From the NCBI GenBank assembly GCA_913057235.1, contig CAJXNI010000024.1, positions 1 through 43,276 of the forward strand: a DNA stretch of 43,276 bases. The letters are read 5' to 3'. This DNA comes from an uncultured Bacteroidota bacterium. Its GTDB lineage: Bacteria; Bacteroidota; Bacteroidia; Flavobacteriales; Schleiferiaceae. The first letter of the stretch is position 1. Each line of letters begins with the position of its first letter. Under the pieces are notes generated by a model that made no database searches, was not told the DNA's origin, and saw nothing but the letters and a program-made list of their open reading frames with translations. Of the stretch, positions 12,790 to 26,896 are shown piece by piece. The position numbers were made by a program, and so were the translations under genes.

Positions 12790-12851
12790 AGACCAAAGGC
12801 TTTACTCAGGCTTTTGAAAAAATTGTGGCCCCGGAAATGGTGATTTAATAC

Positions 12852-12872
12852 TTTGTGTATTTTTAACACTTA
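12852..12872. promoter_or_regulatory. 21-bp palindrome upstream of glgE (putative operator)
   Basis: TTTGTGTA-TTTTT-AACACTTA is centred 28 bases before the glgE start. It matches the palindromes at 18651-18671 and 26815-26835 in length, 5-base centre and GTGT...ACAC core. The left outer bases and one core base differ. No separate TAnnTTTG box is visible, so the site may overlap the promoter or the transcribed leader. Confidence 0.5.
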
Positions 12873-12889
12873 TTAAATCAACTATCCGC

Positions 12890-14809
12890 ATGCCCAATTT
12901 CCCCAAGAACGGCCGCAGCCGAGTATTACTCTCTGAAATAAGCCCCCTTATAGACCATGGCCGCTATCCTGTAAAAAGGTTGGTGCAAGAACCTTTAGTG
13001 GTAAAAGCTTGCCTGGTGGCCGATGGTCACGATGTAATTCAAGGCGCCTTGGCCTATCGCCTTAAAGGCCAAAAAAAATGGAACTACACCCCCTTGAAAG
13101 CTATAGGAAACGACCGTTACCAAGCTCAATTTACCCCTAAAAAGGCAGGCGCTTACGAGTATAAAATTGAAGCTTGGATGGATTATGCGCTAACCTGGCA
13201 CCACGGCTTGGTTAAAAAACAAGAAGACGGGCAAAATGTAGAAGTACAGCTGCAGGATGGCGCTCCTTTTTTTGAATACCTTCTAAAACAAAAAGTAAGC
13301 TGGGCCCAGGATTTCCTCAAGGCTTTGGAAAAAAAGAATTTTGATAAAGCACTGGCACTAGCCCTAAAGCCTGAAACCACCGAAGCCTTTAAAATACACC
13401 CCGCCAAAACCTTTAAAACGGAAAGCGCCATTTTCCCACTTTGGTGCGATGGCGCCAAGGCAGGTTTTAGCAGTTGGTACGAGTTTTTTCCGCGCTCAGC
13501 GGGCCGCAACGGCCAACACGGTACATTTAAGGATGTGGAGGCGCTTCTGCCCAGAGTGGCCCAATTGGGCTTTGATGTGCTCTACCTGCCGCCCGTGCAT
13601 CCCATTGGCGAGGTAAATCGTAAGGGCAAAAATAACAGCACCACGGCTGCAGCTGATGACGTGGGCTCGCCCTGGGGCATTGGCTCTAAAAAAGGGGGGC
13701 ACAAAAGCATTCATCCGCAGTTAGGCTCGCTGGCCGATTATAAAAAACTAATAAAAACCGCCCGAAAAGACTATTGTATTGAGCTGGCGTTGGATCTGGC
13801 CTTTCAATGCGCGCCTGACCACCCCTGGGTAAAAAAACACCCGCAATGGTTTAAATGGCGCAGTGATGGTACCGTGCAGTATGCCGAAAACCCACCCAAA
13901 AAATATCAGGATATTTTACCCATCTACTTTGAAACCGATGACTGGCAAAATCTGTGGAGTGAACTCTTAGCGGTGATTCAACACTGGGTAGATTGCGGCA
14001 TTCAAATTTTTCGGGTAGACAACCCCCACACCAAGTCCATTAATTTTTGGGAGTGGGCTATTGCCGAAATTCATAAAAACCACCCGGAAGTAATCTTTTT
14101 GGCCGAGGCCTTTACCAAACCCGCTTTAATGCATCAATTGGCCAAAGCCGGTTTTAATCAAAGTTACACCTATTTCACCTGGCGCAATTTCCGCCACGAG
14201 CTGATGGAATACATGGAGGAACTTACAAACGGACCGGGAGCCGAATATTTCCGCCCTAATTTTTGGCCCAACACCCCTGATATCAATCCCTATGCTTTGC
14301 AAAGTGGCAACGAAAGCCTCTACCTCATCCGTTTATTTTTAGCCGCTACCCTAAGCAGCAATTACGGGGTGTATGGCCCGGTGTATGAGCTGCGCGATCA
14401 CGCAGCCCTTCCTGGTAAGGAAGAATACGCTAATTCTGAAAAGTATGAGCTACGGCAATGGGATTGGGAAGCAGAGAACAAAATCACCTGGCTCATGAAG
14501 ATTCTCAATCAAGCGCGGAAAGAAAATGCAGCCTTACAACAAACCAAAAACTACCAAAGCCTGGGCTTAGAAAACCAGGCCCTGTTTGCCTATCACAAGT
14601 GGCAGGGAGATAATCAGGTGTTGATGGTTTGCAGTCTGGATCCTTACCAAGAGCAAGAAGGTTGGGTGCAGCTACCCGAAAACTTACGTAGGCAAGCGCT
14701 CACCCTGCACGACTTGGTGAGCGGGGCCACCTACCACTGGCAGGAAGAATGGAATTACGTAAAATTGAATCCGGCTCTGCCTTTTCACCTTCTAAAAATT
14801 GAAGCTTAA
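12890..14809 (+). CDS. glgE: Alpha-1,4-glucan:maltose-1-phosphate maltosyltransferase
   Basis: A 639-residue GH13 enzyme that transfers maltosyl units from alpha-maltose-1-phosphate to the end of a growing alpha-1,4-glucan. The N-terminal beta-sandwich domain (about 8-120) starts RSRVLLSEISPLIDHGRYPVKR, typical of GlgE. The barrel has WYEFFPRSAG, LPPVHPIG and the nucleophile motif FRVDNPHTK with Asp377. The acid/base Glu406 is in FLAEAFT, and the 29-residue spacing matches characterised GlgE enzymes. The maltokinase gene begins one base after its stop, and glgB follows that, so product formation and branching are co-expressed. The 21-bp palindrome just upstream is a likely control site. Confidence 0.95.
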   Translation: MPNFPKNGRSRVLLSEISPLIDHGRYPVKRLVQEPLVVKACLVADGHDVIQGALAYRLKGQKKWNYTPLKAIGNDRYQAQFTPKKAGAYEYKIEAWMDYALTWHHGLVKKQEDGQNVEVQLQDGAPFFEYLLKQKVSWAQDFLKALEKKNFDKALALALKPETTEAFKIHPAKTFKTESAIFPLWCDGAKAGFSSWYEFFPRSAGRNGQHGTFKDVEALLPRVAQLGFDVLYLPPVHPIGEVNRKGKNNSTTAAADDVGSPWGIGSKKGGHKSIHPQLGSLADYKKLIKTARKDYCIELALDLAFQCAPDHPWVKKHPQWFKWRSDGTVQYAENPPKKYQDILPIYFETDDWQNLWSELLAVIQHWVDCGIQIFRVDNPHTKSINFWEWAIAEIHKNHPEVIFLAEAFTKPALMHQLAKAGFNQSYTYFTWRNFRHELMEYMEELTNGPGAEYFRPNFWPNTPDINPYALQSGNESLYLIRLFLAATLSSNYGVYGPVYELRDHAALPGKEEYANSEKYELRQWDWEAENKITWLMKILNQARKENAALQQTKNYQSLGLENQALFAYHKWQGDNQVLMVCSLDPYQEQEGWVQLPENLRRQALTLHDLVSGATYHWQEEWNYVKLNPALPFHLLKIEA

Positions 14810-14810
14810 G

Positions 14811-16430
14811 ATGCCGGCCTTTCAAACCCACGAGAGCTGGACAGAGCTGGCTGAGCACAGTTCACTCTTTAAACATCTATGCGAAGAAGTACTGCCCGAG
14901 TATTTATTTCAATGCCGTTGGTTTGGCGGTAAGGCCGGACACATTTTGCAAGTAAGTATTGAAGATGTGGTACACCTGCAAGATGATTTCAGGCATTACT
15001 ACCTTTTGGTGGTAGAGGTCTTTTTCAAAGAAAGTTTTGCGCACCACTACCTTCTACCCCTGGCCCTAAAGCCGGCTAAAGAGCCCGTGCCAGAGCACGC
15101 CCTACTGGTAAACCTTCAACTTCCTAATGGCCATTTCCAACTTATAGACGCGGTGTACGACCAAGGCTTTCACCGGGCGCTTTACCATCAATTTCACAGC
15201 AACAATCAGGTGAAAACAGGTGCCAATTGTCTGTATTTTAAAGCCCAGGAACCACTCTTACCTCAGGAAGAATTTCACTCTCAATTGCTGAACGCTGAGC
15301 AAAGCAACAGCACGCTTATTTTACAAGAAGCCTATTTTTTAAAGCTATTTCGTAGACTTTTCAGAGATAAGAACCCTGATTTTGAAATCAATGAGTTTTT
15401 AGCACAACAGTCAATTTTTAAAAACTACCCCACTTTGGCTGGCCTCATTTGGCTTCGTACCAGCAGTGGTTTTGAAATTTCGCTGGGGCTCATGCAAAAA
15501 AAGGTGCCCAACCAAGGCGATGCCTGGAATTGGATGCTAGGCGAGTTAAAAAGTTATTTTACCACTGCAGGCCATGAGGCTACTCAAGATTTTAACCCCG
15601 AAGATAGTTTTATTAAACCACTAAAGTTTGAGGCTTTACCCGCAGGCTTGCAACAGAATCCCGGGCAACGCTTTTTCAAACAAATCCAGAAACTAGCTCA
15701 ACGCACAGCCGAAATGCATTTGGCCTTAGCCGCAGAAAGGCGTGATCGCAATTTTAATCCCATTGCCTACAACAGTGATTTTACGGTATGGCTTAAGAAC
15801 CGTTTGATTTACCAATTTGAAGCGCGCTACAACCTCTTGGCTAAAAAGAAAGCCAGCCTGCCCCAGCAGGCTCAGGCTATGGCCGATGAAGTGATAGCGC
15901 AAAAAGATTTCATTATCAATTTCATCTTAGGCTTTGATGAGGAAACCCTTCAGAGCTCGCGCATTCGTATTCATGGCGATTACCACCTGGGCCAGATCTT
16001 AATACAGAATGATGACTTTTACATCCTGGATTTTGAAGGGGAGCCTGAAAGTACCATCCGCGATAGAAAGGTGAAACAAAGTCCTTTGAAAGACGTGGCC
16101 GGTCTTTTCCGGTCTTTCCATTATGCGCTGTTTGCCACCTTATTTAATGAACAAGAAGACTACCCAAATACCCAACAACTTAGTGAGGCTAAGGCCCTCT
16201 ACCGCAGCATGGTGGGCGTGTTTATGCGACAGTACCGCCAAATTGCCTTTAACCACAATTTAGACATTGGCTACCACAAAGAAATCAATTATCTGCTGCA
16301 TTACTTTTTATTGGAAAAGGCCATTTATGAATTGGGCTATGAGTTAAACGGCCGCCCCGGTTGGGCTATCATTCCCTTGCGGGGAATTATTGAAATCATC
16401 AAGGAAATAAAGGAACATGAGCAAGCATAA
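14811..16430 (+). CDS. mak: Maltokinase (Pep2/Mak-like)
   Basis: A 539-residue kinase that should use ATP to make maltose-1-phosphate, the GlgE substrate. The N-terminal cap contains EYLFQCRWFGGKAG, a hallmark of maltokinases and of the TreS-linked kinase domain. The kinase core carries IRIHGDYHLGQIL (catalytic loop) and FYILDFEGEPE (metal-binding DFEGEP). RKVKQSPLKDVAGLFRSF follows, as in Mak proteins. ATG 14811, one base after the glgE stop, is preferred over the in-frame TTG at 14799, which lies inside glgE. In many Bacteroidota this domain is fused to TreS; here it is free-standing. No trehalose synthase is encoded in the window. Confidence 0.92.
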   Translation: MPAFQTHESWTELAEHSSLFKHLCEEVLPEYLFQCRWFGGKAGHILQVSIEDVVHLQDDFRHYYLLVVEVFFKESFAHHYLLPLALKPAKEPVPEHALLVNLQLPNGHFQLIDAVYDQGFHRALYHQFHSNNQVKTGANCLYFKAQEPLLPQEEFHSQLLNAEQSNSTLILQEAYFLKLFRRLFRDKNPDFEINEFLAQQSIFKNYPTLAGLIWLRTSSGFEISLGLMQKKVPNQGDAWNWMLGELKSYFTTAGHEATQDFNPEDSFIKPLKFEALPAGLQQNPGQRFFKQIQKLAQRTAEMHLALAAERRDRNFNPIAYNSDFTVWLKNRLIYQFEARYNLLAKKKASLPQQAQAMADEVIAQKDFIINFILGFDEETLQSSRIRIHGDYHLGQILIQNDDFYILDFEGEPESTIRDRKVKQSPLKDVAGLFRSFHYALFATLFNEQEDYPNTQQLSEAKALYRSMVGVFMRQYRQIAFNHNLDIGYHKEINYLLHYFLLEKAIYELGYELNGRPGWAIIPLRGIIEIIKEIKEHEQA

Positions 16431-18318
16431 GGTACTAGCGCACAGCCTGCTAAGCAAAGAAGATATTTACCTTTTTAATGAAGGCAAGCACTACCAAATT
16501 CACCAAAAATTAGGCAGCCACCCCCTAAGCCTTAAGGGTGAAAGTGGGGTGTATTTTGCCGTGTATGCTCCGGCTGCCCAAAAGGTAGAACTGATTGGCA
16601 ATTTTAATCACTGGCAAGGGGAAAACCATCCCTTAAACGTGCGTTGGGATGGCTCAGGCATTTGGGAAGGTTTTATTGCCGGGCTGGCTGTAGGCGATTT
16701 ATACAAATACCGTATCACCAGCGCCCATCAAGAGCAAGTGTTGGAAAAAGCAGATCCCTACGCCCGGCAGGCGGAACATCCGCCAAAAACAGCCTCAGTG
16801 GTGAGTGAAGCAGCCTATCAATGGCAGGATGCGGCCTGGGAAAAGCATCGCCTTAAGGCTAATTCTTTGCAGGCGCCTTTAAGCGTGTATGAAATGCACC
16901 TTGGCTCCTGGCGTAAAAAAGATGGAGAATTTTTGAGCTACCGCCAACTCGCTAAAGAGCTAGTGCCGTATTTGCAAAAACTGGGCTTTACCCACGTAGA
17001 GTTTATGCCCATTATGGAATTCCCCTATGACCCCAGCTGGGGCTACCAAATTGTTAGTTACTTCGCACCAACCAGTCGTTTTGGCTCTCCGGCCGATTTC
17101 AAATATTTGGTTGATCAGCTACACCAAGCGGGCATTGGCGTTATTCTGGATTGGGTGCCTTCTCACTTTCCGGAAGATGCGCACGGTTTGGGCAATTTTG
17201 ATGGCTCTTGTGTGTATGAGCACCCAGATAAACGGAGAGGCTACCACCCCGACTGGAAGAGCTTGATTTTCAATTACGGACGGCCCCAGGTCAAAAGCTT
17301 TTTAATTAGCAACGCCCTGTATTGGCTGGAAGAATTTCACATTGATGGTTTGCGCGTAGATGCCGTAGCCTCCATGCTGTACTTAGATTATTCACGCAAT
17401 GAGGGAGAGTGGGAACCCAATCAATACGGAGGTAACGAAAACCTGGAGGCCATTGCGTTTATTAAAGATTTTAACGCGGCCGTGCACCAGTACCACCCGC
17501 ATGTGCTCACCATAGCCGAAGAGTCTACTAGCTTTAATGGCGTTACCCGGCCGGTACAAGAAGGTGGCCTGGGTTTTCACTTAAAGTGGATGATGGGTTG
17601 GATGAACGATAATCTGGAGTATTTCAAGAGAAACCCCATTTACCGTCAGCACCACCACAATGAAATTACCTTTAGCCTGGCCTACGCCTTTACCGAGCGG
17701 TTTATGCTGCCGCTTTCGCACGATGAAGTGGTGTACGGCAAAAAATCGCTTTTAGAGAGAATGCCCGGTGACGACTGGCAGACCTTTGCCAATTTACGGC
17801 TTCTCTACAGTTGGATGTTCCTGCACCCGGGCGCTAAGCTCATTTTTATGGGCGGAGAATTTGGGCAGCGGGCCGAATGGGATTTTGCCGGCCAACTAAA
17901 CTGGGAAGAGTCTGGCTATGAGGCCCACCAGGGCATTGCAAAAACCTTAACGCAGCTCAACGCGCTGTATCGGCAGGAGCCCGCGCTGCATGCGCGCAAT
18001 TATGAAAATGAGGGTTTTGAATGGATTGAGTTGAACGATGCTCAAAACTCCGTGATTTCTTTCATCCGCCAAAGCGAAAAAGAAGAATTGGTGTGTGTGC
18101 TTAATTTAACGCCCGTGCCACATGAAAAATTTGCAGTAGGGGTTAATCAGCCCGGGAGCTATCAAGAGATTTTTAATTCAGACCACACCGAGTTTTGGGG
18201 CAGCGGTCTTATAAACACCCAGAACCTAAAAACGGAGACTCAAACTTTACATGGCCGAATGCAAACTTTAAGTATTTCGGTTCCGCCTTTAGGTGCTGTA
18301 GTGTTTAAAAAGTTATAG
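16417..18318 (+). CDS. glgB: 1,4-alpha-glucan branching enzyme
   Basis: A 633-residue GH13 enzyme that cuts alpha-1,4 chains and reattaches them as alpha-1,6 branches. A CBM48 domain (about 40-110) includes VELIGNFNHW and YKYRI. The catalytic barrel has LGSWR, EFMPIMEFPYDPSWGYQ, GLRVDAVASMLYLDYSR with nucleophile Asp315, TIAEES with Glu368 and PLSHDEVV with Asp436. ATG 16417 overlaps the maltokinase stop by 14 bases, implying translational coupling. It completes a GlgE-Mak-GlgB set. The gene ends convergently with a small opposite-strand gene, overlapping by 6 bases. Confidence 0.96.
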   Translation: MSKHKVLAHSLLSKEDIYLFNEGKHYQIHQKLGSHPLSLKGESGVYFAVYAPAAQKVELIGNFNHWQGENHPLNVRWDGSGIWEGFIAGLAVGDLYKYRITSAHQEQVLEKADPYARQAEHPPKTASVVSEAAYQWQDAAWEKHRLKANSLQAPLSVYEMHLGSWRKKDGEFLSYRQLAKELVPYLQKLGFTHVEFMPIMEFPYDPSWGYQIVSYFAPTSRFGSPADFKYLVDQLHQAGIGVILDWVPSHFPEDAHGLGNFDGSCVYEHPDKRRGYHPDWKSLIFNYGRPQVKSFLISNALYWLEEFHIDGLRVDAVASMLYLDYSRNEGEWEPNQYGGNENLEAIAFIKDFNAAVHQYHPHVLTIAEESTSFNGVTRPVQEGGLGFHLKWMMGWMNDNLEYFKRNPIYRQHHHNEITFSLAYAFTERFMLPLSHDEVVYGKKSLLERMPGDDWQTFANLRLLYSWMFLHPGAKLIFMGGEFGQRAEWDFAGQLNWEESGYEAHQGIAKTLTQLNALYRQEPALHARNYENEGFEWIELNDAQNSVISFIRQSEKEELVCVLNLTPVPHEKFAVGVNQPGSYQEIFNSDHTEFWGSGLINTQNLKTETQTLHGRMQTLSISVPPLGAVVFKKL

Positions 18319-18609
18319 CTGTACTACGCTGTTTTCGGTGCTAAAACTGTTGGGAACATAGGCATCGGCTTCTGTGTCATTAAGCCACTCTTGCCCATTT
18401 ACGCAATATCTGAACTCATGCGCGGCACCGGTTTCTAAATCTACCGTGCGGGTAAAACCGTCTTTTACTTTGCGCATAGCAATGGGCTCCCAATTGTTAA
18501 AACTGCCCACTAGCTCTACCTTCTTGGCTTTAGCCGCCATGGGGCCAGGCACTTGAAAGCTTACTTTACAAATGGGCTTAGACTTTAGGAACTTCTTTTT
18601 TAAGGCCAT
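18313..18609 (-). CDS. Small isoamylase early set / glycogen-binding domain protein
   Basis: A 98-residue protein that is almost entirely one E-set/AMPK-type carbohydrate-binding module: KAKKVELVGSFNNWEPIAMRKVKDG, then HEFRYCVNGQEWLNDTEADAY. Start 18609 (MALKKKFLKSKPICKV) is chosen over the ORF start at 18705. Family members begin this way, and the upstream 32 codons encode a hydrophobic stretch that overlaps the promoter region. There is no catalytic domain, so a glycogen-binding or scaffolding role is inferred. It overlaps glgB convergently by 6 bases and is divergent from the GH31 gene, with a shared palindrome between them. Confidence 0.85.
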   Translation of the reverse strand: MALKKKFLKSKPICKVSFQVPGPMAAKAKKVELVGSFNNWEPIAMRKVKDGFTRTVDLETGAAHEFRYCVNGQEWLNDTEADAYVPNSFSTENSVVQL

Positions 18610-18630
18610 TATTTTTTGAATGATTTGGGT

Positions 18631-18638
18631 CAAAACTA
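18631..18638 (-). promoter_or_regulatory. Putative -7 box for the glycogen-binding-domain gene
   Basis: The minus strand reads TAGTTTTG, matching TAnnTTTG, 21 bases before the start codon at 18609. The palindrome at 18651-18671 covers the expected -33 region, so a protein bound there would contact or block polymerase. Confidence 0.5.
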
Positions 18639-18650
18639 CAATAAAAATAC

Positions 18651-18671
18651 TAAGTGTAAAAATTACACGAA
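18651..18671. promoter_or_regulatory. 21-bp palindrome in the divergent glycogen-binding protein / GH31 promoter region
   Basis: TAAGTGTA-AAAAT-TACACGAA has perfect GTGTA/TACAC arms. It lies between two divergent genes and overlaps the expected -33 regions of both. A near-consensus + strand -7 box, TAATTTCG, is at 18687-18694. The palindrome matches sites before glgE and pckA. Confidence 0.6.
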
Positions 18672-18729
18672 GTGCAAATAAAATGGTAATTTCGGACCCT
18701 ATCAATAGTCAGGCAATCAATTAACCTAT

Positions 18730-21120
18730 ATGCAACAATTACTTAACGAGCACTACCCTAACAACATCGTAAAATACCAAACCGGTAGTGATTTTGCGCT
18801 CTTTACCACCCGCAATGAAACCATGCTACGGGTAGAAGTGATTACCGACCACGTTATGCGTTTACGCTATACCGCCAAAGGCTATTTTGAAAATGATTTC
18901 TCCTATGCTTTGGCCGCCAATCACCGCAGCGGTTTCAGCAAATTTTCAATAGCCGAAAATGAAAAAGATTTTACGGTAAGTACGCCCAAGTTAAAAGCAG
19001 TGGTTCAGAAGCATAATTTAAGCGTGGCCCTTTTTGATGAACATGGTCAACTGCTGAATGAGGACGAAAAAGGGTTTCATTGGGAAGAAAACACCCAGCA
19101 AGGCGGCAACATTGTAAAAATGAGCAAGCGCTCTTTAAACGGAGAGAATTACTACGGCCTGGGCGATAAACCCACCAATCTGAACCTTCGCGATAAGCGC
19201 TTTCAGAACTGGGGTACGGATGAATACGGCTTTGCTAAAGACACCGACCCACTCTACCGTAACATTCCTTTCTATTACGGTTTACACAAAAATGGGGTCT
19301 ACGGAATTTTCTTTGACAATAGCTTCCGCACCTTTTTTGACTTTGCCAGTGAGCGTAAAAACGTCACCAGCTTTTGGGCCGAAGGAGGTGAAATGAACTA
19401 CTATTTTATTGCCGGTTCCAGCCTCATGAATATTGCCCAGCGCTATGCACGCCTTACCGGAAAACCTGAGCTGCCGCCACTTTGGACCCTGGGCTACCAT
19501 CAATGTAAATGGAGCTACCCCACGGAGCAAGAGGTAACCAGCATTACCGCCAAAATGCGCGAGCTTAAAATCCCCTGTGACGCCATTTATTTAGACATTG
19601 ATTATATGGATGGCTTTCGTTGTTTTACCTGGAACACCGAGAGTTTCCCAGACCCCAAGGGCATGGTAGACCGGCTCAAGGCCGATGGCTTTAAAACCGT
19701 GGCCATTATTGATCCCGGCATTAAGGTAGACATGGACTACGAGGTGTGCAAAGAAGGTTTTGAAAAAGGCTATTTCTGCACCTATGCCGATGGACCTTTG
19801 TACAAAGGCAAGGTTTGGCCAGGCGATTGTTATTTCCCGGATTTCACCAACCCGGAGGTGCGCGAATGGTGGAGCGGTCTTTTTAAAGGCTTAATAGCCG
19901 ATGTGGGCTTAGCCGGCATTTGGAATGACATGAATGAACCCGCCATTATGGAAGTGCCTACCAAAACCTTTCCGCTGGAAATTAGGCATGACTATGACGG
20001 CAACCCCTGCAGCCACCGCAAAGGGCACAATGTGTACGGTATGCAAATGAGCCGCGCCAGCTATGAGGGCGTAAAAAAGTTTGCTTTTCCCAACCGCCCC
20101 TTTTTAATTACCCGTTCTACTTTTTCAGGCGGGCAGCGCTACAGCTCGGTTTGGACGGGCGATAACGTAGCCACCTGGGAACACCTTTGGGTGGCCAATG
20201 TACAGTGCCAAAGGCTTAGCGTAAGCGGCTTTTCTTTTGTTGGTACTGATATTGGAGGCTTCACGGAGCATCCTGATATGGAGTTGTACGTGCGCTGGCT
20301 GCAATTAGCCGTTTATCATCCGCTTATGCGTACCCACTCCAGCGGAGATCACGGTGATCAAGAGCCCTGGAGTTTTGGTGAGGAAGCTACCGACCTGGCC
20401 CGCAAGGCCATAGAACTGCGTTACCAACTGCTCCCTTACCACTACAGCACTTTCCAGCAATTGGTAGAAAATGGTACGCCTGTTATACGTCCTCTGGCCT
20501 TTGTCTACCATCAAGATGTAAACACCTGGTACCGCCAGGATGAATTCCTTTTTGGCGACCACCTTTTGGTGTGCCCTGTATTAGAGCCTAACCGCAACGG
20601 CCGTAGAATGTATTTCCCCGAAGGCACCTGGTACCACTACTATACCGATGCCGAGGTAGAAGGCGGCAAAGAAGAGTTTGTAGAAACACCCTTGGATCAA
20701 ATCCCCACTTTTGTGCGGGCCGGAGCCATTATTCCGCACTACCCCATTCAGCAGTACGTAGGTGAAAAAGCACTGGAAAGCATTGACTTACACGTGTACA
20801 AAGGCACTGAAAACACTGAAAGTTATTTGTATGAAGATGCCGGAGATGGCTATGGTTACCAACAAGATATGTATGCGGCCAAAAGCTTTGTAGCCATGGC
20901 CAATGGCGGCAAGAAATACCGTATCACCCAGCATCGCAAAGGGCGCTTTGGTCCAGAATACAGTGAGTACCGTCTGGTTTTTCATGGCTTTGAAACCCTG
21001 CCTGATACTTTGGAATTGAATGGTGAGGCGCTGGAACCATCGGCTTTAAGCCAAACTGGCAATACCTTTAGCTGTAGGGTACCTGAAGATTTTTACCAGC
21101 TTACCTTACGGTGGAAGTGA
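18730..21120 (+). CDS. GH31 family alpha-glucosidase
   Basis: A 796-residue glycoside hydrolase of family 31, releasing glucose from the non-reducing ends of alpha-glucans or oligosaccharides. The nucleophile motif is GIWNDMNEPA with Asp400, and the acid/base Asp478 lies in WTGDNVATWEHL. FVGTDIGGF and HPLMRTHS are other conserved GH31 segments. The N-terminal galactose-mutarotase-like domain (about 1-240) contains YYGLGDKP. No signal peptide is visible, so a cytoplasmic role on stored or imported glucan is inferred. It follows the glg operon and shares a divergent palindrome-containing control region with the small glycogen-binding protein. Confidence 0.94.
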   Translation: MQQLLNEHYPNNIVKYQTGSDFALFTTRNETMLRVEVITDHVMRLRYTAKGYFENDFSYALAANHRSGFSKFSIAENEKDFTVSTPKLKAVVQKHNLSVALFDEHGQLLNEDEKGFHWEENTQQGGNIVKMSKRSLNGENYYGLGDKPTNLNLRDKRFQNWGTDEYGFAKDTDPLYRNIPFYYGLHKNGVYGIFFDNSFRTFFDFASERKNVTSFWAEGGEMNYYFIAGSSLMNIAQRYARLTGKPELPPLWTLGYHQCKWSYPTEQEVTSITAKMRELKIPCDAIYLDIDYMDGFRCFTWNTESFPDPKGMVDRLKADGFKTVAIIDPGIKVDMDYEVCKEGFEKGYFCTYADGPLYKGKVWPGDCYFPDFTNPEVREWWSGLFKGLIADVGLAGIWNDMNEPAIMEVPTKTFPLEIRHDYDGNPCSHRKGHNVYGMQMSRASYEGVKKFAFPNRPFLITRSTFSGGQRYSSVWTGDNVATWEHLWVANVQCQRLSVSGFSFVGTDIGGFTEHPDMELYVRWLQLAVYHPLMRTHSSGDHGDQEPWSFGEEATDLARKAIELRYQLLPYHYSTFQQLVENGTPVIRPLAFVYHQDVNTWYRQDEFLFGDHLLVCPVLEPNRNGRRMYFPEGTWYHYYTDAEVEGGKEEFVETPLDQIPTFVRAGAIIPHYPIQQYVGEKALESIDLHVYKGTENTESYLYEDAGDGYGYQQDMYAAKSFVAMANGGKKYRITQHRKGRFGPEYSEYRLVFHGFETLPDTLELNGEALEPSALSQTGNTFSCRVPEDFYQLTLRWK

Positions 21121-21153
21121 CACAGCTTTTTACCTTAGCTGAAAATTGATGCG

Positions 21154-22032
21154 ATGAATACAAGCTCCAAACCAAAAGTAAAACTGGTGTTGGCCAGTGG
21201 TGGAGCACGCGGCATGGCGCATATTGGCGTAATTGAACGCCTGGAGCAAGAAGGTTTTGAAATTGTGGAAGTAGTGGGCTGCTCTATGGGTGCGGTAGTG
21301 GGTGGCCTGTACGCCAGCGGTGAGCTCAAGGCCTATAAAGATTGGCTGCTCACCTTAAAACGAGCGGATATTTTTAAGCTCATGGATTTTACCTTGGCCA
21401 AGCACGGTTTTGTAAAAGGTGAAAAAGTTTTTAGCACCATTTTACAAATGATTGGGCCCCGTAAAATTGAGGATTTGCCTATAAATTTTACCGCAGTGGC
21501 CACCGATATGCACACGGGTAAAGAAATTGTGTTTAAAGAAGGAGACCTTTTTCAGGCCTTGCGTGCCTCTATTTCCATACCCGGTATTTTCACCCCAGTG
21601 AAGTATGCCCAAACTCATTTAATTGATGGCGGTGTAATTAACCCGCTCCCCTTAAACTTAGTGAAGCCTGAGGGCGATGAAATTGTAGTGGCTGTAGACA
21701 TTAACGCGCCCAATCCGGTGGAAGCAATTCAGGAAACGCCCGCTGAGGAAACCACGAAAGACCGCAAAAACTGGCTCTCTTTAAACTGGCCCTTTTTACA
21801 CAAAGATGAGAAAGCAGGCCCCATTGATCCCAATCTGGTAGATGTCTTACAAACCAGTTACGACCACATGCAAAATCGACTCATTCAACTGATGGTTAAG
21901 GCCTACCCGCCAAATGTGCTGGTTAAAATACCCCGCAACACCTGCGGCATGTTTGATTTTCATAAGGCCCGGGAAGTCATAGAGTTAGGGGCCAGGGAGT
22001 ATGATAGAGCGGTTGAAAAGTCGGTGGTGTAA
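21154..22032 (+). CDS. Patatin-like phospholipase family protein
   Basis: A 292-residue lipid acyl hydrolase of the patatin/RssA group. The oxyanion-hole motif is SGGARG (15-20), the nucleophile elbow is GCSMG with Ser44, and the catalytic Asp is in LIDGG (Asp158), giving the Ser-Asp dyad. No signal peptide is present, so it is probably cytoplasmic or loosely membrane-bound. It begins 33 bases after the GH31 stop and could be read from the same transcript. Substrate and physiological role are not known. Confidence 0.92.
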   Translation: MNTSSKPKVKLVLASGGARGMAHIGVIERLEQEGFEIVEVVGCSMGAVVGGLYASGELKAYKDWLLTLKRADIFKLMDFTLAKHGFVKGEKVFSTILQMIGPRKIEDLPINFTAVATDMHTGKEIVFKEGDLFQALRASISIPGIFTPVKYAQTHLIDGGVINPLPLNLVKPEGDEIVVAVDINAPNPVEAIQETPAEETTKDRKNWLSLNWPFLHKDEKAGPIDPNLVDVLQTSYDHMQNRLIQLMVKAYPPNVLVKIPRNTCGMFDFHKAREVIELGAREYDRAVEKSVV

Positions 22033-22082
22033 GGGGCTATTAAATTCTTTAACCTAATTCCGATTATACCAAAAATAAAAAG

Positions 22083-22090
22083 TAATTTTG
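22083..22090 (+). promoter_or_regulatory. Putative -7 promoter box for rpsP-rimM
   Basis: TAATTTTG matches TAnnTTTG and lies 55 bases before the rpsP start. A short hairpin GAGAC-AGAG-GTCTC followed by TTTT (22114-22131) lies in the resulting leader. Confidence 0.5.
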
Positions 22091-22145
22091 CGCTCCTTTT
22101 AAATTAATTAACCGAGACAGAGGTCTCTTTTAAAATTATTAATGC

Positions 22146-22700
22146 ATGGCAACTCGTATTAGATTGCAACGTCACGGCCGCAAAGGTCACCCCATCTTTC
22201 AAATTGTAGTAGCAGACTCTCGCGTTAAGCGTGACGGTAAAGTTATTGAGCGTTTAGGGCAATACAATCCCAACGTAAATCCTGCGGTGATTGACATCAA
22301 CTTTGACCGCGCCCTTGATTGGGTTATGAAAGGCGCCCAGCCCAGTGATACCGCCCGTGCTATCCTTAAGTACAAAGGCGTAATGATGAAGAAACACCTT
22401 TTAGAAGGCGTGAAAAAGGGTGCATTTGATGAGGCAGAAGCTGAAAAGCGCTTTGACAAATGGATGGAAGAGAAAATCCAAAAAATTGAAGGCAAACGGG
22501 AAGGCTTAACCAAGGCACAAGAAGAGGCCCGCGCCAAAGCCTTAGAGGCCGAGCGTAAGAAAAATGAAGAGCGCGCAGCTGCTATTGCGGAAGCTAATAA
22601 GCCTGAAGAAGCAGAGGCTCCAGCAGAAGAAGCTGAGGAAACTGAAGCTAGCGCTGAAAGCGAAGCTCCTGCCGAAGAAGAAACTAAAAAAGAAGATTAA
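22146..22700 (+). CDS. rpsP: 30S ribosomal protein S16 with acidic C-terminal extension
   Basis: S16 is a small-subunit assembly protein that binds 16S rRNA. Residues 1-80 are canonical, starting [26 protein letters not shown] and including RLGQYNP. The total of 184 residues is about twice the bacterial norm. The extra C-terminal half is Lys/Glu-rich (predicted helix, about 100-150), then Ala/Glu low-complexity. Such tails are common in Bacteroidota S16. It forms an operon with rimM, which starts 10 bases downstream. Confidence 0.96.
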
Positions 22701-22710
22701 TTACGCTTAG

Positions 22711-23235
22711 GTGCAAAAGGCCGATTGCTTTCAATTAGGCTTCATTAGCCGGCTGCACGGAGTTAAAGGAGAGTTGGTAGCGGTATTTGATACCGATCAA
22801 CCCCAACGTTATAAAAATTTGGAATCAGTTTTCGTGGACATCCGCGGGGAACTGGTTCCTTTTTTTATTGAAGAAATTGCTCAAAATAGTAAAGGCCACT
22901 TTATTGTAAGGCTGGAAGATGTAGACAGTGAAGAGGCGCAAACCTTAGTAGATCGAGAGCTTTTTCTCCCTTTAGAGTTGCTTCCGCCTTTGAGCGGTAA
23001 AAGTTTTTATTACCATGAGGTAGTAGGCTTTGCCATGGAAGATCTTGAAAATGGAGCCTTAGGCCATTGCACCAAAATACTGGAAAATGGTGCCCAGCCT
23101 GTCTTTTTTATTGAAGGCCTTAAAGGCGAAGAAATACTGGTTCCGGCAGTAGATGCCTTTATCGAAAAAATTGACCGGGAACAGAGACAAATAATCCTGA
23201 GCCTGCCCCCCGGCCTTTTAGATCTTTACCAGTAA
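22711..23235 (+). CDS. rimM: Ribosome maturation factor RimM
   Basis: A 174-residue 16S rRNA processing factor that assists late 30S assembly and binds S19. The N-terminal RimM domain shows FQLGFISRLHGVKGELVA, and the C-terminal PRC-barrel starts near YYHEVVGFAMED and includes ILVPAVDAFIEKID. The start codon is GTG at 22711, supported by the alignment-like N-terminus just before the conserved LGFI motif. It sits directly after rpsP, the usual gene pair. The next gene is convergent after 3 bases. Confidence 0.95.
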   Translation: MQKADCFQLGFISRLHGVKGELVAVFDTDQPQRYKNLESVFVDIRGELVPFFIEEIAQNSKGHFIVRLEDVDSEEAQTLVDRELFLPLELLPPLSGKSFYYHEVVGFAMEDLENGALGHCTKILENGAQPVFFIEGLKGEEILVPAVDAFIEKIDREQRQIILSLPPGLLDLYQ

Positions 23236-23238
23236 ACG

Positions 23239-23433
23239 CTAAGCGCCCAAGCTTTTTAGTAATTCATATACTAAAAAAGCGGGCCAAACTAGTGCTTTTA
23301 AAAAGCCTACCACACCCGGCCAAAAACCCGATGCCGAACTGATGTAATAAACAGCCGCACCGATGAATCCTAAACCGTAAACGGTTCCTCCGGCTGCACC
23401 AGAACCTTTTACTGATTTCTTTTTGTCTTGCAT
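23239..23433 (-). CDS. Small membrane protein, conserved hypothetical
   Basis: A 64-residue protein with two likely membrane helices (about 15-34 and 40-60). The sequence GSGAAGGTVYGLGFIGAAVYY followed by FLKALVWPAFLVYELLKSLG resembles small conserved Bacteroidota membrane proteins. A basic N-terminus (QDKKKSVKGS) predicts an inside orientation. It is a lone gene, convergent with rimM and divergent from trmN6. No function is known. An overlapping ORF in another frame has no family-like features. Confidence 0.75.
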   Translation of the reverse strand: MQDKKKSVKGSGAAGGTVYGLGFIGAAVYYISSASGFWPGVVGFLKALVWPAFLVYELLKSLGA

Positions 23434-23506
23434 TTTCTGTTAAATTGATGAGAGAAATTAAATCCAATTAAAGTTACCACAAAGACCTTAAATCCTTATT
23501 GCCAGC

Positions 23507-24226
23507 TTGAGAAAAAACACCAGAGATAACCCGAAGCCTTTCCGCTTTAAGCAGTTTCACGTACACCACCACCTTTGCGCCCATAAGGTAGGCACTGATG
23601 GGGTGCTGCTGGGCGCTTGGGCCAGCCATCCTCAACCACAGCGAATATTAGACGTGGGCTGTGGGAGCGGCCTCATTGGCTTCATGTTAGCACAGCGCTA
23701 TCCGCAAGCCACTTTTGTGGGAGTGGACCAGCATGCGCCTTCCATTAAGCAAGCCCGCCAAAGCCTGGAAGAAGGCCCTTTTAAAGAAAGAGGCGAATTT
23801 GTACATGCCAATTTTCTAAAATGGGAACCCAGAGAAAAATTCGACCTGATTGTTTCCAATCCGCCTTTTTTTGAGAAAGCACAGCAAACGAGCCGAGCGG
23901 AACGCGATGCCGCCCGCAGGCAGTTCAGTTTGCCACATGAAAAAATGCTGGAGAAAATGGCCTCATTGCTAAAAGCAGGTGGGACCATAGCCTTGGTTTT
24001 ACCAACTAATCAAGCGCAAATATTAATGCCTGTGGCTCATGAATTGAACCTTAAAGTAAATGCTCAAATAGAAGTGAGCTCCTTTCCGGGTACCAAGGTT
24101 ATACGGCTTTTAGTGGCTTTTAGTCCTGCTGCTCAAGATCCAGTTAGCCAGAAACTGGCCATTAGAGACCACTCCAGTGTTTGGAGTCCAGCCTATCAAG
24201 CGTTGACCCAAGAATTTTACCTTTAA
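23507..24226 (+). CDS. trmN6: tRNA1(Val) (adenine(37)-N6)-methyltransferase
   Basis: A 239-residue methyltransferase (YfiC family) that uses SAM to make m6A37 in valine tRNA. The N-terminus FRFKQFHVHHHLCAHKVGTDGVLLGAW is the family hallmark. SAM motif I is ILDVGCGSGLIG, and the N6-adenine motif is VSNPPFF. There is no ATG before the conserved start, so TTG at 23507 is used; the nearest upstream in-frame stop is at 23489-23491. The stop overlaps the convergent saccharopine-dehydrogenase-like gene by 4 bases. Confidence 0.9.
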   Translation: MRKNTRDNPKPFRFKQFHVHHHLCAHKVGTDGVLLGAWASHPQPQRILDVGCGSGLIGFMLAQRYPQATFVGVDQHAPSIKQARQSLEEGPFKERGEFVHANFLKWEPREKFDLIVSNPPFFEKAQQTSRAERDAARRQFSLPHEKMLEKMASLLKAGGTIALVLPTNQAQILMPVAHELNLKVNAQIEVSSFPGTKVIRLLVAFSPAAQDPVSQKLAIRDHSSVWSPAYQALTQEFYL

Positions 24227-25569
24227 TACCCCCTATACTCCACTTCCTTCTCCGTAAAGGTGATGTCATTTTCGGCCAACTCAGCTAGCATGGGTTGGTA
24301 TATTTCTGGGGTGATGGGGATTTGCACGCCTGGGGTGGTGATGTTGCCATTCAAGATGTTTTTGGTGGCTATCCCTACCGGCAAACCTACGGTGCGCGCC
24401 ATGGCGGTCTCATTTTTATCGCGACCTTTAGTTACCATGCTGCTCTCCAGCATTTTCAATTCACCGTTTAACTCGTAGCCAAATTTGTGGTACATCACAA
24501 TCATGTCTTTTTCATCTTCGCCTAAGGCCCACTTTTTTTCCAAAATTCTTTGCAGCACTTGAGCGGGCGTGGCATTTTTCAAGCCAATGGGCGTATTCTC
24601 AAAAAGGCCCAACCAGCTCAATTTGTCCATCAACTCACTGTCTTGAGGGATATTTAAATAATGCATCAGCTTAAGCTCAACCGAGTCATGCGGATTGTAG
24701 GCCAAAAACAGATTGGTAAACTCCCGAAAGGTCATGGTTTCGCTTTCTTCCAGGGTATAGCTGTCATCGGTCATGCCCAGCTTTACAAATACATCCCAGG
24801 CTCGGCAAAAGCCTGGCCTGCGCAAGGTTCCTCGGTAAATGGTAGGGATTTTTTCCAGACCGTACACGCTGCGGTATTTTAAAGAATCGCGGTTGGCATA
24901 ACCTTCAAATCGGCCGTAGCCATCAATACTTATTAATTCAGTGCGTCTAAAAAGCTGATGGTAGGGGATAAACTTGTACTGCCCTTCTTGAATAAACTTT
25001 ACGGCTCCTCCGGCTCCGGCCAAAACCACGTTTCTGGGGTTCCAGGTAAACTTGTAATTCCAGGGGTTGTCGTCATTTTCGGGGGCCACCAGCCCACCGG
25101 TAAAACTCTCAAACAACTTAATTTTCCCACCTGCGCTTTTAATTTCATCCAATACTTTCATGGCACTGAGGTGGTCAATGCCTGGGTCTACCCCGATTTC
25201 ATTAATGAGAATCACTCCCGCTTGCTTAGCGCGATCATCAAGCGCCTTCATCTCTTCACTGATGTAGGAAGCCGTAACCATGTGTTTACCCAGGGCAATG
25301 CAATCGGTAGCTACCGGTACGTGCATATGGGCAGGCAGCATACTAATTACCAAATCGGCATTGGAAATGGCTGAACCCCGGTTAATCTCATCTTTCACGT
25401 TGAGGGTAATGGCACTACAGCGTTCATTATCAGTGGCTCTGCGTTGGGCCAACTCTAAATCGAGGTCTCCAATGGTTAGGTGCCAATCTTCCTGAACGGC
25501 ATGCTTTTTCAAATATTCAATTAAGCTGTAAGTAGAGCGTCCGGCCCCTATGATGAGTATTTTTTTCAT
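24223..25569 (-). CDS. Saccharopine dehydrogenase family protein
   Basis: A 448-residue NAD(P)-dependent oxidoreductase of the Lys9/saccharopine reductase type. The dinucleotide-binding start is MKKILIIGAGRSTYSLIEYL, followed by ADLVISMLPAHMHVPVA and INEIGVDPGIDHLSA. A C-terminal catalytic part includes ESFTGGLVAPENDDNPWNYKFTWNPRNVVLAG. In Bacteroidota such genes are proposed to act in lysine degradation through saccharopine, but no lysine-pathway partner is adjacent. A -7-like box lies 21 bases upstream, divergent from the DUF4476 gene. It could act on a related imino acid. Confidence 0.88.
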   Translation of the reverse strand: MKKILIIGAGRSTYSLIEYLKKHAVQEDWHLTIGDLDLELAQRRATDNERCSAITLNVKDEINRGSAISNADLVISMLPAHMHVPVATDCIALGKHMVTASYISEEMKALDDRAKQAGVILINEIGVDPGIDHLSAMKVLDEIKSAGGKIKLFESFTGGLVAPENDDNPWNYKFTWNPRNVVLAGAGGAVKFIQEGQYKFIPYHQLFRRTELISIDGYGRFEGYANRDSLKYRSVYGLEKIPTIYRGTLRRPGFCRAWDVFVKLGMTDDSYTLEESETMTFREFTNLFLAYNPHDSVELKLMHYLNIPQDSELMDKLSWLGLFENTPIGLKNATPAQVLQRILEKKWALGEDEKDMIVMYHKFGYELNGELKMLESSMVTKGRDKNETAMARTVGLPVGIATKNILNGNITTPGVQIPITPEIYQPMLAELAENDITFTEKEVEYRGY

Positions 25570-25589
25570 GAAATATTTTGGCTTTGCGG

Positions 25590-25597
25590 CAAATTTA
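25590..25597 (-). promoter_or_regulatory. Putative -7 box for the saccharopine-dehydrogenase-like gene
   Basis: The minus strand reads TAAATTTG, matching TAnnTTTG, and ends 20 bases before the start codon at 25569. It forms a compact divergent promoter pair with the + strand box at 25616-25623. Confidence 0.5.
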
Positions 25598-25615
25598 AAA
25601 TTAAAGCAATGCCCT

Positions 25616-25623
25616 TACCTTTG
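25616..25623 (+). promoter_or_regulatory. Putative -7 box for the DUF4476 gene
   Basis: TACCTTTG matches TAnnTTTG and ends 17 bases before ATG 25641. The leader would be very short. Confidence 0.5.
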
Positions 25624-25640
25624 AAACCTAATTTTTAATC

Positions 25641-26417
25641 ATGCAGCAACTTTTTTGGGCCCTAATCTTTAGCCTCGGATGGTTAGGCACTTCTGCACAA
25701 ATTTCCATTTACATAGAAGATAAAACCCAAAACGGCTTTAAATTGGTGGCTAACGGCTATTTACAAAACGCAGTAAGCAGCCCCAACCTTTACTTAAAAA
25801 ATCTGCCTACTGAATCAGAGGTCTTTCTGCATTTTATAATGAATACCCGGCCAGAAAAAGAATTTGGTCGCCCTCTTACGCTCAAGGCCGATGGCATTTA
25901 CCATTACGTAATAATGACCAATTTTAAAGGGAAAACGCAGCTGCGCTACCGCGGAAGAATCAATCAAGTACCCGAAGGGTTGGAGTCTACCAACTTCAAA
26001 AAGCTGATAGCCTACGCACCGGCCTTACAAAAGCTCAATCAAAAACCGGCAAAAGAACCTCATGCTACCGCTCAGGCACCCGTGAATCCTACCGCAACAA
26101 CCCCATCGGAAAAACAACCGGCAGAAGCTACGCCCCAAGCAAAACCTGCGTCTTTTGAGCAAAGCTTCACACAGTTTAAGCAAATAGAATTTGAGTTTGA
26201 GAAATTGCGCTTTGCCAAAGAATCACTCTTAAACTTTAAGCTAAACATAGAGCAGGCCGTACAAGTCATGAAAGGCTTTAAATACGATCAAACCCGCATG
26301 CAGTTTTTAGAGGCACTGTTAAAAAAACAGCCTGGACTGCGCTTTTCAGGCGATTTATTGAAGGCCACTTTTGAATATGAACTTTCCAGGCAACAGGCCA
26401 GTAACCTTTTAAAATAA
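25641..26417 (+). CDS. DUF4476 domain-containing secreted protein
   Basis: A 258-residue protein with a signal peptide (about 1-19, ending TSAQ). A beta-rich N-terminal region (20-125) is followed by a Pro/Ala/Thr-rich linker (about 130-170). The helical C-terminal domain (about 175-258) shows FEFEKLRFAKESLLNFKLNIEQAVQVMKGFKYDQTRMQFLE, matching the DUF4476 pattern in which helices count off F and R residues. The function of DUF4476 is unknown. The downstream DUF423 gene starts 5 bases after its stop, so they form an operon. Confidence 0.8.
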   Translation: MQQLFWALIFSLGWLGTSAQISIYIEDKTQNGFKLVANGYLQNAVSSPNLYLKNLPTESEVFLHFIMNTRPEKEFGRPLTLKADGIYHYVIMTNFKGKTQLRYRGRINQVPEGLESTNFKKLIAYAPALQKLNQKPAKEPHATAQAPVNPTATTPSEKQPAEATPQAKPASFEQSFTQFKQIEFEFEKLRFAKESLLNFKLNIEQAVQVMKGFKYDQTRMQFLEALLKKQPGLRFSGDLLKATFEYELSRQQASNLLK

Positions 26418-26421
26418 GCAG

Positions 26422-26817
26422 ATGAATAGCAAAAGCATTTTAGGCATTGCCGCATTTATGGCCTTTACAGCCGTAATTTTAGGCGCCTTAGGCGCCCATG
26501 CCCTAAAAGATAGTTTAAGTGCAGATGCCTTGGACTCCTTTAAAACGGGCGTGCGCTACCAGGCATGGCATGCGTTGGCCCTACTCTTTTTAGGCCTTTT
26601 GGCGCACCTAAAGCTGGTTAAAGGAGCATCGGCTGTAGCTTGGTTATTTACCCTGGGGGTGGTCCTTTTTTCTTTAAGTATTTACGGCTTAAGTACCCAA
26701 AGCCTCACGCACTTATCACTGGGTTGGTTAGGCCCCGTTACTCCCTTAGGAGGGTTATTTTTAATTGCCGGTTGGGCTTTGCTTTTTATTAAGATACTGC
26801 GCTCTAACCGGCTCTAA
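26422..26817 (+). CDS. DUF423 family membrane protein
   Basis: A 131-residue inner-membrane protein of the YgdD/DUF423 family with four predicted helices. The family signature GALGAHALKDSLSADALDSFKTGVRYQAWHALALL is visible near residues 21-55. The function is not known. It is coupled to the DUF4476 gene by a 4-base gap. The palindrome that begins at its stop codon may belong to the next gene, pckA. Confidence 0.92.
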   Translation: MNSKSILGIAAFMAFTAVILGALGAHALKDSLSADALDSFKTGVRYQAWHALALLFLGLLAHLKLVKGASAVAWLFTLGVVLFSLSIYGLSTQSLTHLSLGWLGPVTPLGGLFLIAGWALLFIKILRSNRL

Positions 26818-26835
26818 GTGTACATTTTACACTTA
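26815..26835. promoter_or_regulatory. 21-bp perfect palindrome upstream of pckA (putative operator)
   Basis: TAAGTGTA-CATTT-TACACTTA is a perfect palindrome outside the 5-base centre, extending by one more C/G pair (26814-26836). It overlaps the DUF423 stop codon and lies about 65 bases before the pckA -7 box. There is no T-run, so it does not look like a terminator. It is the best copy of the motif shared with the glg region. Confidence 0.6.
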
Positions 26836-26888: not shown

Positions 26889-26896
26889 TATTTTTG
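26889..26896 (+). promoter_or_regulatory. Putative -7 promoter box for pckA
   Basis: TATTTTTG matches TAnnTTTG and lies 32 bases before ATG 26929. The palindrome centred at 26825 would be about 75-80 bases upstream of transcription start, a position typical of activators. Confidence 0.5.

Follow-up and report, generated by a model that had tools for sequence, protein, structure and literature searches.

The described systems closest to the one analysed here are NrtR-family sugar regulators of Bacteroidota. BtAraR (BT0354), the L-arabinose repressor of Bacteroides thetaiotaomicron, reads a GTGT motif in its crystal structure with DNA through K179, R180, N181 and K184 of a helix and K204 and R205 of a wing, and the oligonucleotides used in its electrophoretic mobility shift assays carry AAAGTGTAAAAAAGACACTTA and AAAGTGTTACTTTTACACCCA (PMC4666351). 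BtXylR (BT0791), which we liken by its description and not by its sequence, is also an NrtR-family sugar regulator of this phylum, controlling xylose genes instead (PMC3878776, PMC4666351). In this study, we analysed three 21-bp palindromes in a 43,276-nucleotide stretch of DNA from an uncultured member of the Schleiferiaceae (GenBank assembly GCA_913057235.1, contig CAJXNI010000024.1, positions 1 to 43,276), hereafter the window, which forms contig C24 of the own genome (G000; 2.83 Mb in 49 contigs). The palindromes are very probably landing sites of one sugar-sensing regulator, an NrtR-type protein designated NrtR1.

The logic proposed for NrtR1 is like that of FruR/Cra in enterobacteria, where one regulator represses glycolytic and activates gluconeogenic genes, and of PckR in Rhizobiales, which is predicted to repress glycolytic genes and to activate pckA, its mode being read from upstream regions (PMC4052901). 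Both are members of the LacI family, whereas NrtR1 is an unrelated protein of the NrtR type, and the likeness is in logic only; HexR and CceR in proteobacteria are further non-homologous parallels (PMC5507952). Shewanella NrtR (3gz5/3gz6) has the same fold as NrtR1 but controls NAD genes and responds to ADP-ribose. Little seems to have been written on how Bacteroidota decide between glycolysis and gluconeogenesis: the literature matches listed included nothing on point for gluconeogenesis regulators of Bacteroides and no NrtR-family regulator of central carbon metabolism, those on Bacteroidota NrtR proteins being work on AraR and XylR and a RegPrecise paper (subscription papers and the RegPrecise database lay outside the search). 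Bacteroidota are not known to have either Cra or CcpA.

We propose, with a probability of about 0.78, that NrtR1 responds to sugar, represses glycolysis and the use of glucans and probably activates pckA, acting as a Cra-like switch from an unrelated family, with its binding, effector and sign of action predicted from sequence and position. Such a system is ordinary in kind, a sugar repressor with its operators, and unusual in scope. If true, the predicted regulon and its candidate regulator, together with the operators defined here and the sign predicted at each promoter, could be tested in organisms that can be cultured, among them Pedobacter and Marivirga, and the NrtR family, so far tied to NAD and pentoses, would reach into central metabolism.

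Probable palindromic operators in the window and the genome

All three palindromes were located where the original prediction had placed them, each in an 8-5-8 layout. The pckA operator (26815-26835, plus strand), TAAGTGTA-CATTT-TACACTTA, has no mismatch, the operator common to a divergent glycogen-binding gene and a GH31 gene (18651-18671, plus strand) has two, and the glgE operator (12852-12872, plus strand) has three. The "same 5-base centre" that had been claimed for them is right as to the length of the spacer and wrong as to its letters. Their number compares with 0.14 expected in the window from 100 dinucleotide shuffles, none of which contained three. Scored with a matrix of 38 sites, which included two of the three window sites and left out the one at 12852, they reached 31.6, 28.1 and 19.2, and the next-best place in the 43,276 bases scored 1.0, leaving an 18-bit gap below the third site.

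Bacteroidota promoters carry the consensus TAnnTTTG at -7 and an additional element at -33. Measured in this frame, the three sites stand as predicted, between genes or at a gene edge: near the start of glgE (12890-14809, plus strand; maltosyltransferase, Pfam GlgE_dom_N_S, 1.4e-45); over the -33 region of the divergent pair formed by a small glycogen-recognition protein (18313-18609, minus strand; AMPK1_CBM, 1.2e-08; start set by homology) and the GH31 gene (18730-21120, plus strand; Glyco_hydro_31, 3.8e-124); and far upstream of pckA (26929-28542, plus strand; ATP-type phosphoenolpyruvate carboxykinase, PEPCK_ATP, 6.1e-219), where the first three bases of the operator are the TAA stop codon of the preceding DUF423 open reading frame (26422-26817). 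The glycogen-binding frame as listed from a TTG (18313-18705) would span the 18651 site; its homology with two relatives, G028 and G014, is limited to 297 nt, so the gene starts at the ATG at 18609 and the site is intergenic. At glgE, an imperfect -7 box (TACTTTG, 12849-12855) runs into the left operator arm, TTTGTGTA, and in G028 the operator comes after a perfect TAACTTTG. This arm departs from the consensus because the site begins inside the box (TAACTTTGTGTA in G028, TACTTTGTGTA in the own genome).

Across the own genome, sites with at most two mismatches numbered eight, compared with two for a reversed-pattern control; at up to three mismatches both counts were 17, and this threshold is too loose. 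A 21-column sequence model, built from 38 sites of the own and related genomes, 26 of them also entered in reverse (64 rows), returned nine places at E ≤ 0.06 and the glgE site at E 0.85, thus ten at E < 1, with E-values that are rough and seven of the ten places in the training set. They lie at a second NrtR gene (NrtR2), between pfkA and NrtR1, at pckA, at GH13a, between the glycogen-binding and GH31 genes, at a GH13/starch-binding pair on contig C8, on contigs C48 and C13, at susC (C21:26857; a weaker site, score 22.4) and at glgE. Instead of being scattered at random or mainly inside genes, seven of the ten face glucan, glycolytic or gluconeogenic genes, the pfkA site facing NrtR1 as well, and one faces NrtR2. 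The shared glucan and gluconeogenesis regulon that had been suggested from the window is thus supported, and it extends further, being centred on pfkA-gapA and on maltose and starch genes outside the window. Two sites found by pattern only were not among the hits of the model, which covered 150 of 2158 first-look candidates: C1:227626 (menE/menC by eye, two mismatches) and C31:23821 (before a secreted GH13 gene, three mismatches).

In the window, glgE is followed in line by a maltokinase-like gene (14799-16430, plus strand; Mak_N_cap, 5.5e-08) and a glgB-type branching enzyme gene (16417-18318, plus strand; CBM_48, Alpha-amylase, GlgB_N). G028 keeps the order glgE-malK-glgB-CBM/GH31, with one site at glgE and two between the CBM and GH31 genes, and G014, which has no glgE match, carries sites before glgB, GH31 and the CBM (glycogen-binding) gene; in both, the operator marks whichever gene opens the glg operon. 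Among the 60 genomes, glgE is present in five, the own included.

NrtR1 as the candidate regulator

A candidate regulator gene close to the hits had been anticipated, and one is found at C21:26096, outside the window. NrtR1 is divergent from the pfkA operon (pfkA-gapA-BadF-type kinase-pgmB-GH65-GH13-GH13-symporter), with a site in the gap, and lies just upstream of susC/susD. Its product combines an N-terminal Nudix-like domain with a C-terminal winged helix (Pfam NUDIX 4e-7, NrtR_WHD 3.6e-25, AraR_C 8e-11), matches AraR of B. thetaiotaomicron at 5e-37 in phmmer and is distant in sequence from Shewanella NrtR (2.2e-14). The best match of its AlphaFold model (pLDDT 87) in the Protein Data Bank by Foldseek is AraR (5bs6, E 2.9e-21), and Shewanella NrtR is matched too (3gz6, E 7.4e-15). 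The recognition helix DKRNFRK, invariant in 21 aligned NrtR1 proteins, equals AraR at D178, K179, R180, N181, R183 and K184. BtAraR is thus like NrtR1 in domain layout, fold and recognition helix, in the GTGT core and 21-bp palindrome of its operators, and in its linkage to sugar genes and SusCD (PMC4666351); unlike BtAraR, NrtR1 has glycolysis, alpha-glucan genes and pckA as its predicted targets. We hold the identity of the operator and the assignment of NrtR1 to the NrtR family with high confidence. The GTGT arms match AraR operators, and a Crp-type site was rejected on that comparison.

NrtR1 was also considered as an AraR orthologue, and this was rejected. The wing residues K204 and R205 of AraR are replaced by H219 and K220; of the arabinose contacts, R86 and H131 are kept (R85 and H146 in NrtR1) and R34 is replaced by Q32; G48 and F49 are changed to D and L; an insertion of about 15 residues, with invariant D91 and R99, follows the pocket residue R85; and the linked genes are pfkA-gapA-pgmB-GH65-GH13 and SusCD, not arabinose catabolic genes. 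Given the loss of R34 and the insertion, the ligand is probably a sugar other than arabinose or a sugar phosphate, and our confidence in the identity of the effector is low. The Nudix signature, RVLKEISGL read by eye against REUXEEXGU (PMC4666351), lacks two glutamates; judged from these residues, its catalytic signature is impaired, and by this feature NrtR1 falls within the NrtR family.

The motif and NrtR1 occur together. Among 37 genomes of the same family (own included; 23 genomes of other families stand outside this count), the 29 with NrtR1 contained 158 sites with at most two mismatches, compared with 52 for the reversed pattern, and the eight without it, among which we counted two weak Nudix-only matches (G003, G017), contained seven compared with 18 (Fisher test for the contrast, 4.7e-6). 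A site with at most four mismatches lies within 260 bp before NrtR1 in 25 of 30 genomes, and such a palindrome close to the regulator's own gene is a further trait that NrtR1 shares with the NrtR family. Much of the family to which the own genome belongs has the genes arranged as NrtR1, site, pfkA, gapA, BadF-type kinase, pgmB, GH65, GH13, and some loci (e.g., L106, L107, L118) have NrtR1 without this arrangement. In the best 80 named loci of a wider sample, 76 of which have at least 250 bp upstream, pfkA is divergent from NrtR1 within 3 kb in 33, and 32 of these pairs have a site scoring at least 8 between the genes (7.8 in the remaining one); the pairs are not independent, because many of the Pedobacter are closely related. 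They come from what we take to be Flavobacteriales (families were read from tree labels), Marivirga, Pedobacter and its kin, a metagenome-assembled genome named Sphingobacterium, and Flavihumibacter. In those of the 80 loci named Bacteroidales or Saprospir-, some of them on short contigs, pfkA was not seen beside NrtR1, and in several genomes of a class-wide sample NrtR1 adjoins a BadF-type kinase and GH31, GH13 or GH65 genes, with no pfkA in the stretch examined. Since 20 of the 42 inner branches remained open in a tree that joined 39 of the 80 loci with AraR, Shewanella NrtR and the four own NrtR proteins, we do not claim that the linkage to pfkA arose only once.

Two genes of the pfkA operon deserve mention in their own right. 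The BadF-type kinase (L018:9105-9971, contig C21), lies between gapA and pgmB and, in many distant relatives, keeps its place next to NrtR1; the adjoining GH65 and beta-phosphoglucomutase genes suggest a maltose phosphorylase route, for which it may serve as glucokinase. Glyceraldehyde-3-phosphate dehydrogenase has three homologues (C21:24006-24995, C1:141119-142096, C7:60960-61961), of which only the pfkA-operon copy was seen behind an operator; three copies would leave room for a glycolysis-only gapA in this operon, which would suit separate glycolytic and gluconeogenic enzymes.

Promoter geometry and the predicted switch

Geometry was expressed as the gap from the end of the operator to the predicted -7 box. 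At pfkA it is -3 in 10 of 15 genomes (5, 5, 6, 11 and 12 in the others), meaning that the last three bases of the operator double as the first three of the box, mostly TAAGTTTG. The gap is 4 at GH13a in three of four genomes, 12-15 at all eight measured susC sites, and 12-15 in three of three at GH31, to a variant box, TAnTTTCG or TAATTTCG; the latter, a -7-like box and not an exact consensus, lies at 18687-18694 (plus strand) in the window, 15 bp from the operator. The glycogen-binding gene has its predicted box, TAGTTTTG, at 18631-18638 (minus strand), 12 bp from the operator, and relatives show gaps of -3, 51 or none. At pckA, the predicted box TATTTTTG (26889-26896, plus strand) is 53 bp downstream of the operator, and the gap is 52-54 in seven of the nine site-bearing genomes: the own, G014, G012, G028, G007, and G049 and G039, which belong to other families. 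It is 61 in G018, and no box was found in G043.

From these positions the following switch can be envisaged. An NrtR1 dimer without its sugar effector would bind the 21-bp site. It would cover the core promoter, and so repress, at pfkA, at glgE and at the first GH13 gene; it would lie over the -33 region, and most likely repress too, at susC, at GH31 and at the glycogen-binding gene. At pckA, the site would be too far upstream to block RNA polymerase, and NrtR1, sitting at a constant 52-54 bp before the -7 box, would most likely activate. Repression thus follows from operator position at the core promoters, and activation of pckA from the conserved distance. The arrival of an alpha-glucan sugar would turn the winged helices off the DNA, a movement that has been shown for AraR, so that glycolysis, starch uptake and glucan storage would be on and pckA down; when sugar is absent, glycolysis would be off and pckA on, by analogy with Cra. 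The idea in the original prediction, of one regulator repressing some targets and activating others, fits the conserved positions, the sign being deduced from them; our confidence in dual control by NrtR1 is moderate.

Among relatives, pckA was found in 54 of 60, and its upstream DNA was examined for 30 besides the own. A site scoring at least 16.8 is present in eight of the 23 that carry NrtR1; the other 22 relatives, including all seven without NrtR1, score at most 2.5. Seven of the eight sites were outside the training set, and seven lie at -115 to -139 (at -87 in G039). A check of ten named genomes, with pckA found in eight, gave a site 52 bp from the box in Marivirga, sites with three or four mismatches 46-47 bp from it in four Pedobacter species, and a two-mismatch site without an exact box in Flavihumibacter; under a first-order Markov null, at most three mismatches are reached in 0.2% and at most four in 2% of 600-bp regions. 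Across the class, 80 genomes were sampled, of which 74 had pckA and 60 were examined for its upstream DNA; there, a pckA score of at least 8 was reached in five of the 22 with any NrtR (1e-30), compared with none of 38 without (p = 0.005). Judged by the distribution of sites, pckA control seems genuine but patchy, as though it had been acquired or lost on several occasions. On conservation in relatives, on which the original prediction had staked its case, the syntenic G028 and G014 loci keep their sites, the pckA site is found in eight of 30 relatives and the glgE-start site in two of the five glgE genomes.

Whether the scheme holds for much of Bacteroidota, with an NrtR-family sugar sensor of Nudix fold acting as the central-carbon switch, a -7-fused operator shutting pfkA-gapA and glucan use, and a fixed-distance upstream operator activating pckA, we consider evenly balanced. 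It would be a counterpart of Cra grown from a local alpha-glucan regulon. Local regulators growing into global ones are discussed in PMC4052901, and the loci where NrtR1 has no more than a BadF-type kinase and glucan hydrolases as neighbours fit this course.

Competing explanations and NrtR paralogues

Several observations weigh against the proposed switch. The boxes that underlie the geometry are predicted from the general -7/-33 consensus of Bacteroidota promoters, and 20 of 32 distant pfkA sites have no exact TAnnTTTG in the range searched. With 150 of the 2158 candidates scored, the sequence model may have missed sites, and two of its ten places face genes without a clear link, encoding a response-regulator receiver (C13) and a Pfam-less protein (C48). 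No site precedes NrtR1 in five of 30 relatives (G001, G009, G013, G019, G031), G009 carrying NrtR1 alone; G005, G006 and G032 have no susC site at up to three mismatches; and eight of 13 strong class-sample NrtR1 loci (E below 1e-80) have no site at a score of 12. Only the own genome and G028 of the five glgE genomes have the site at the gene start, that of G001 being 1.6 kb off. The pckA site is absent in 15 of the 23 NrtR1-bearing relatives, its association with NrtR1 (8/23 vs 0/7) is not significant alone (p = 0.14), Pedobacter psychrodurus and P. suwonensis have no site at the usual place, and in the class-wide sample two of the 13 genomes with a strong NrtR1 reach a pckA score of at least 8, so that the link did not generalise. 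Finally, the own genome encodes four NrtR proteins, NrtR1 and three paralogues, one of which has a site overlapping its own start codon.

This last point bears on a rather doubtful alternative, which need not exclude the proposed switch, namely that the sites belong to a paralogue (NrtR2 on contig C11, or NrtR3 or NrtR4) or are common to several NrtR proteins, alike in nearly all of the recognition helix, in a network. The NrtR2 helix, DKRNFHK, keeps K, R, N and K, and the site at its start codon is strong; G009, where NrtR1 is the sole NrtR, lacks the site before this gene. However, G018 and G027 have NrtR1 as their only NrtR match and yet keep the pfkA and susC sites, G018 the pckA site also; among the paralogues, it is NrtR1 whose gene is linked with pfkA and susCD; and a strong site is missing from the loci of NrtR4 and of NrtR3, the latter having a weak one (E 5.3) at the gene start. 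No more probable, and likewise not exclusive in its odds, is a reading that contests a single step: NrtR1 would be only a local repressor of alpha-glucan use and glycolysis, and its pckA site would repress or affect read-through from DUF423, without activation. The repressor-type positions of all other sites, the overlap of the pckA site with the DUF423 stop codon, its absence from most NrtR1-bearing relatives examined and the class-sample loci without pfkA agree with this. It is opposed by the gap at pckA, which is fixed within the own family as well as in G049 and G039 and recurs in Marivirga and, slightly shortened, in Pedobacter (G018 and G043 depart); such a gap is most simply explained by an action on the pckA promoter that depends on distance.

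Sensing of ADP-ribose or NAD status, as in the founding NrtR, instead of sugar, is improbable: NrtR1 belongs to the same family and shares the Shewanella fold, but it is closer to sugar-binding AraR in both sequence and fold, keeps two of the three arabinose-contact residues, and, so far as the annotation goes, none of the sites found lies before an NAD gene. That the palindromes arose by chance was rejected as next to impossible. The equal genome counts at three mismatches would suit chance; the excess at two mismatches, the 18-bit gap in the window, the conservation of the sites and of their fixed geometry in relatives, and the retention of the site in nearly every pfkA/NrtR1 pair of the wider loci, which served as a held-out set, do not.

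Among the remaining loci, NrtR2 (C11:55195-55901; L016:3315-4021) has a start codon whose first base lies within a strong copy of the palindrome, with otsA (by eye) and a DUF6909 gene nearby; judging from this arrangement, NrtR2 probably controls its own gene or is controlled by NrtR1. The site at C13:40295-40315 (L017:4001), with one mismatch, lies about 55 bp before the gene of a single-domain response-regulator receiver with no evident sugar tie, and the strong site at C48:4366-4384 (L292) is upstream of the Pfam-less protein, which is possibly secreted. The two further paralogues (C28:3123-3881, L096; C14:6430-7182, L097) are 44-45% identical to NrtR1; their neighbours are a sodium symporter, a sugar transporter and GH30 in one case and a GH17-like gene in the other, and they are perhaps beta-glucan counterparts of NrtR1.

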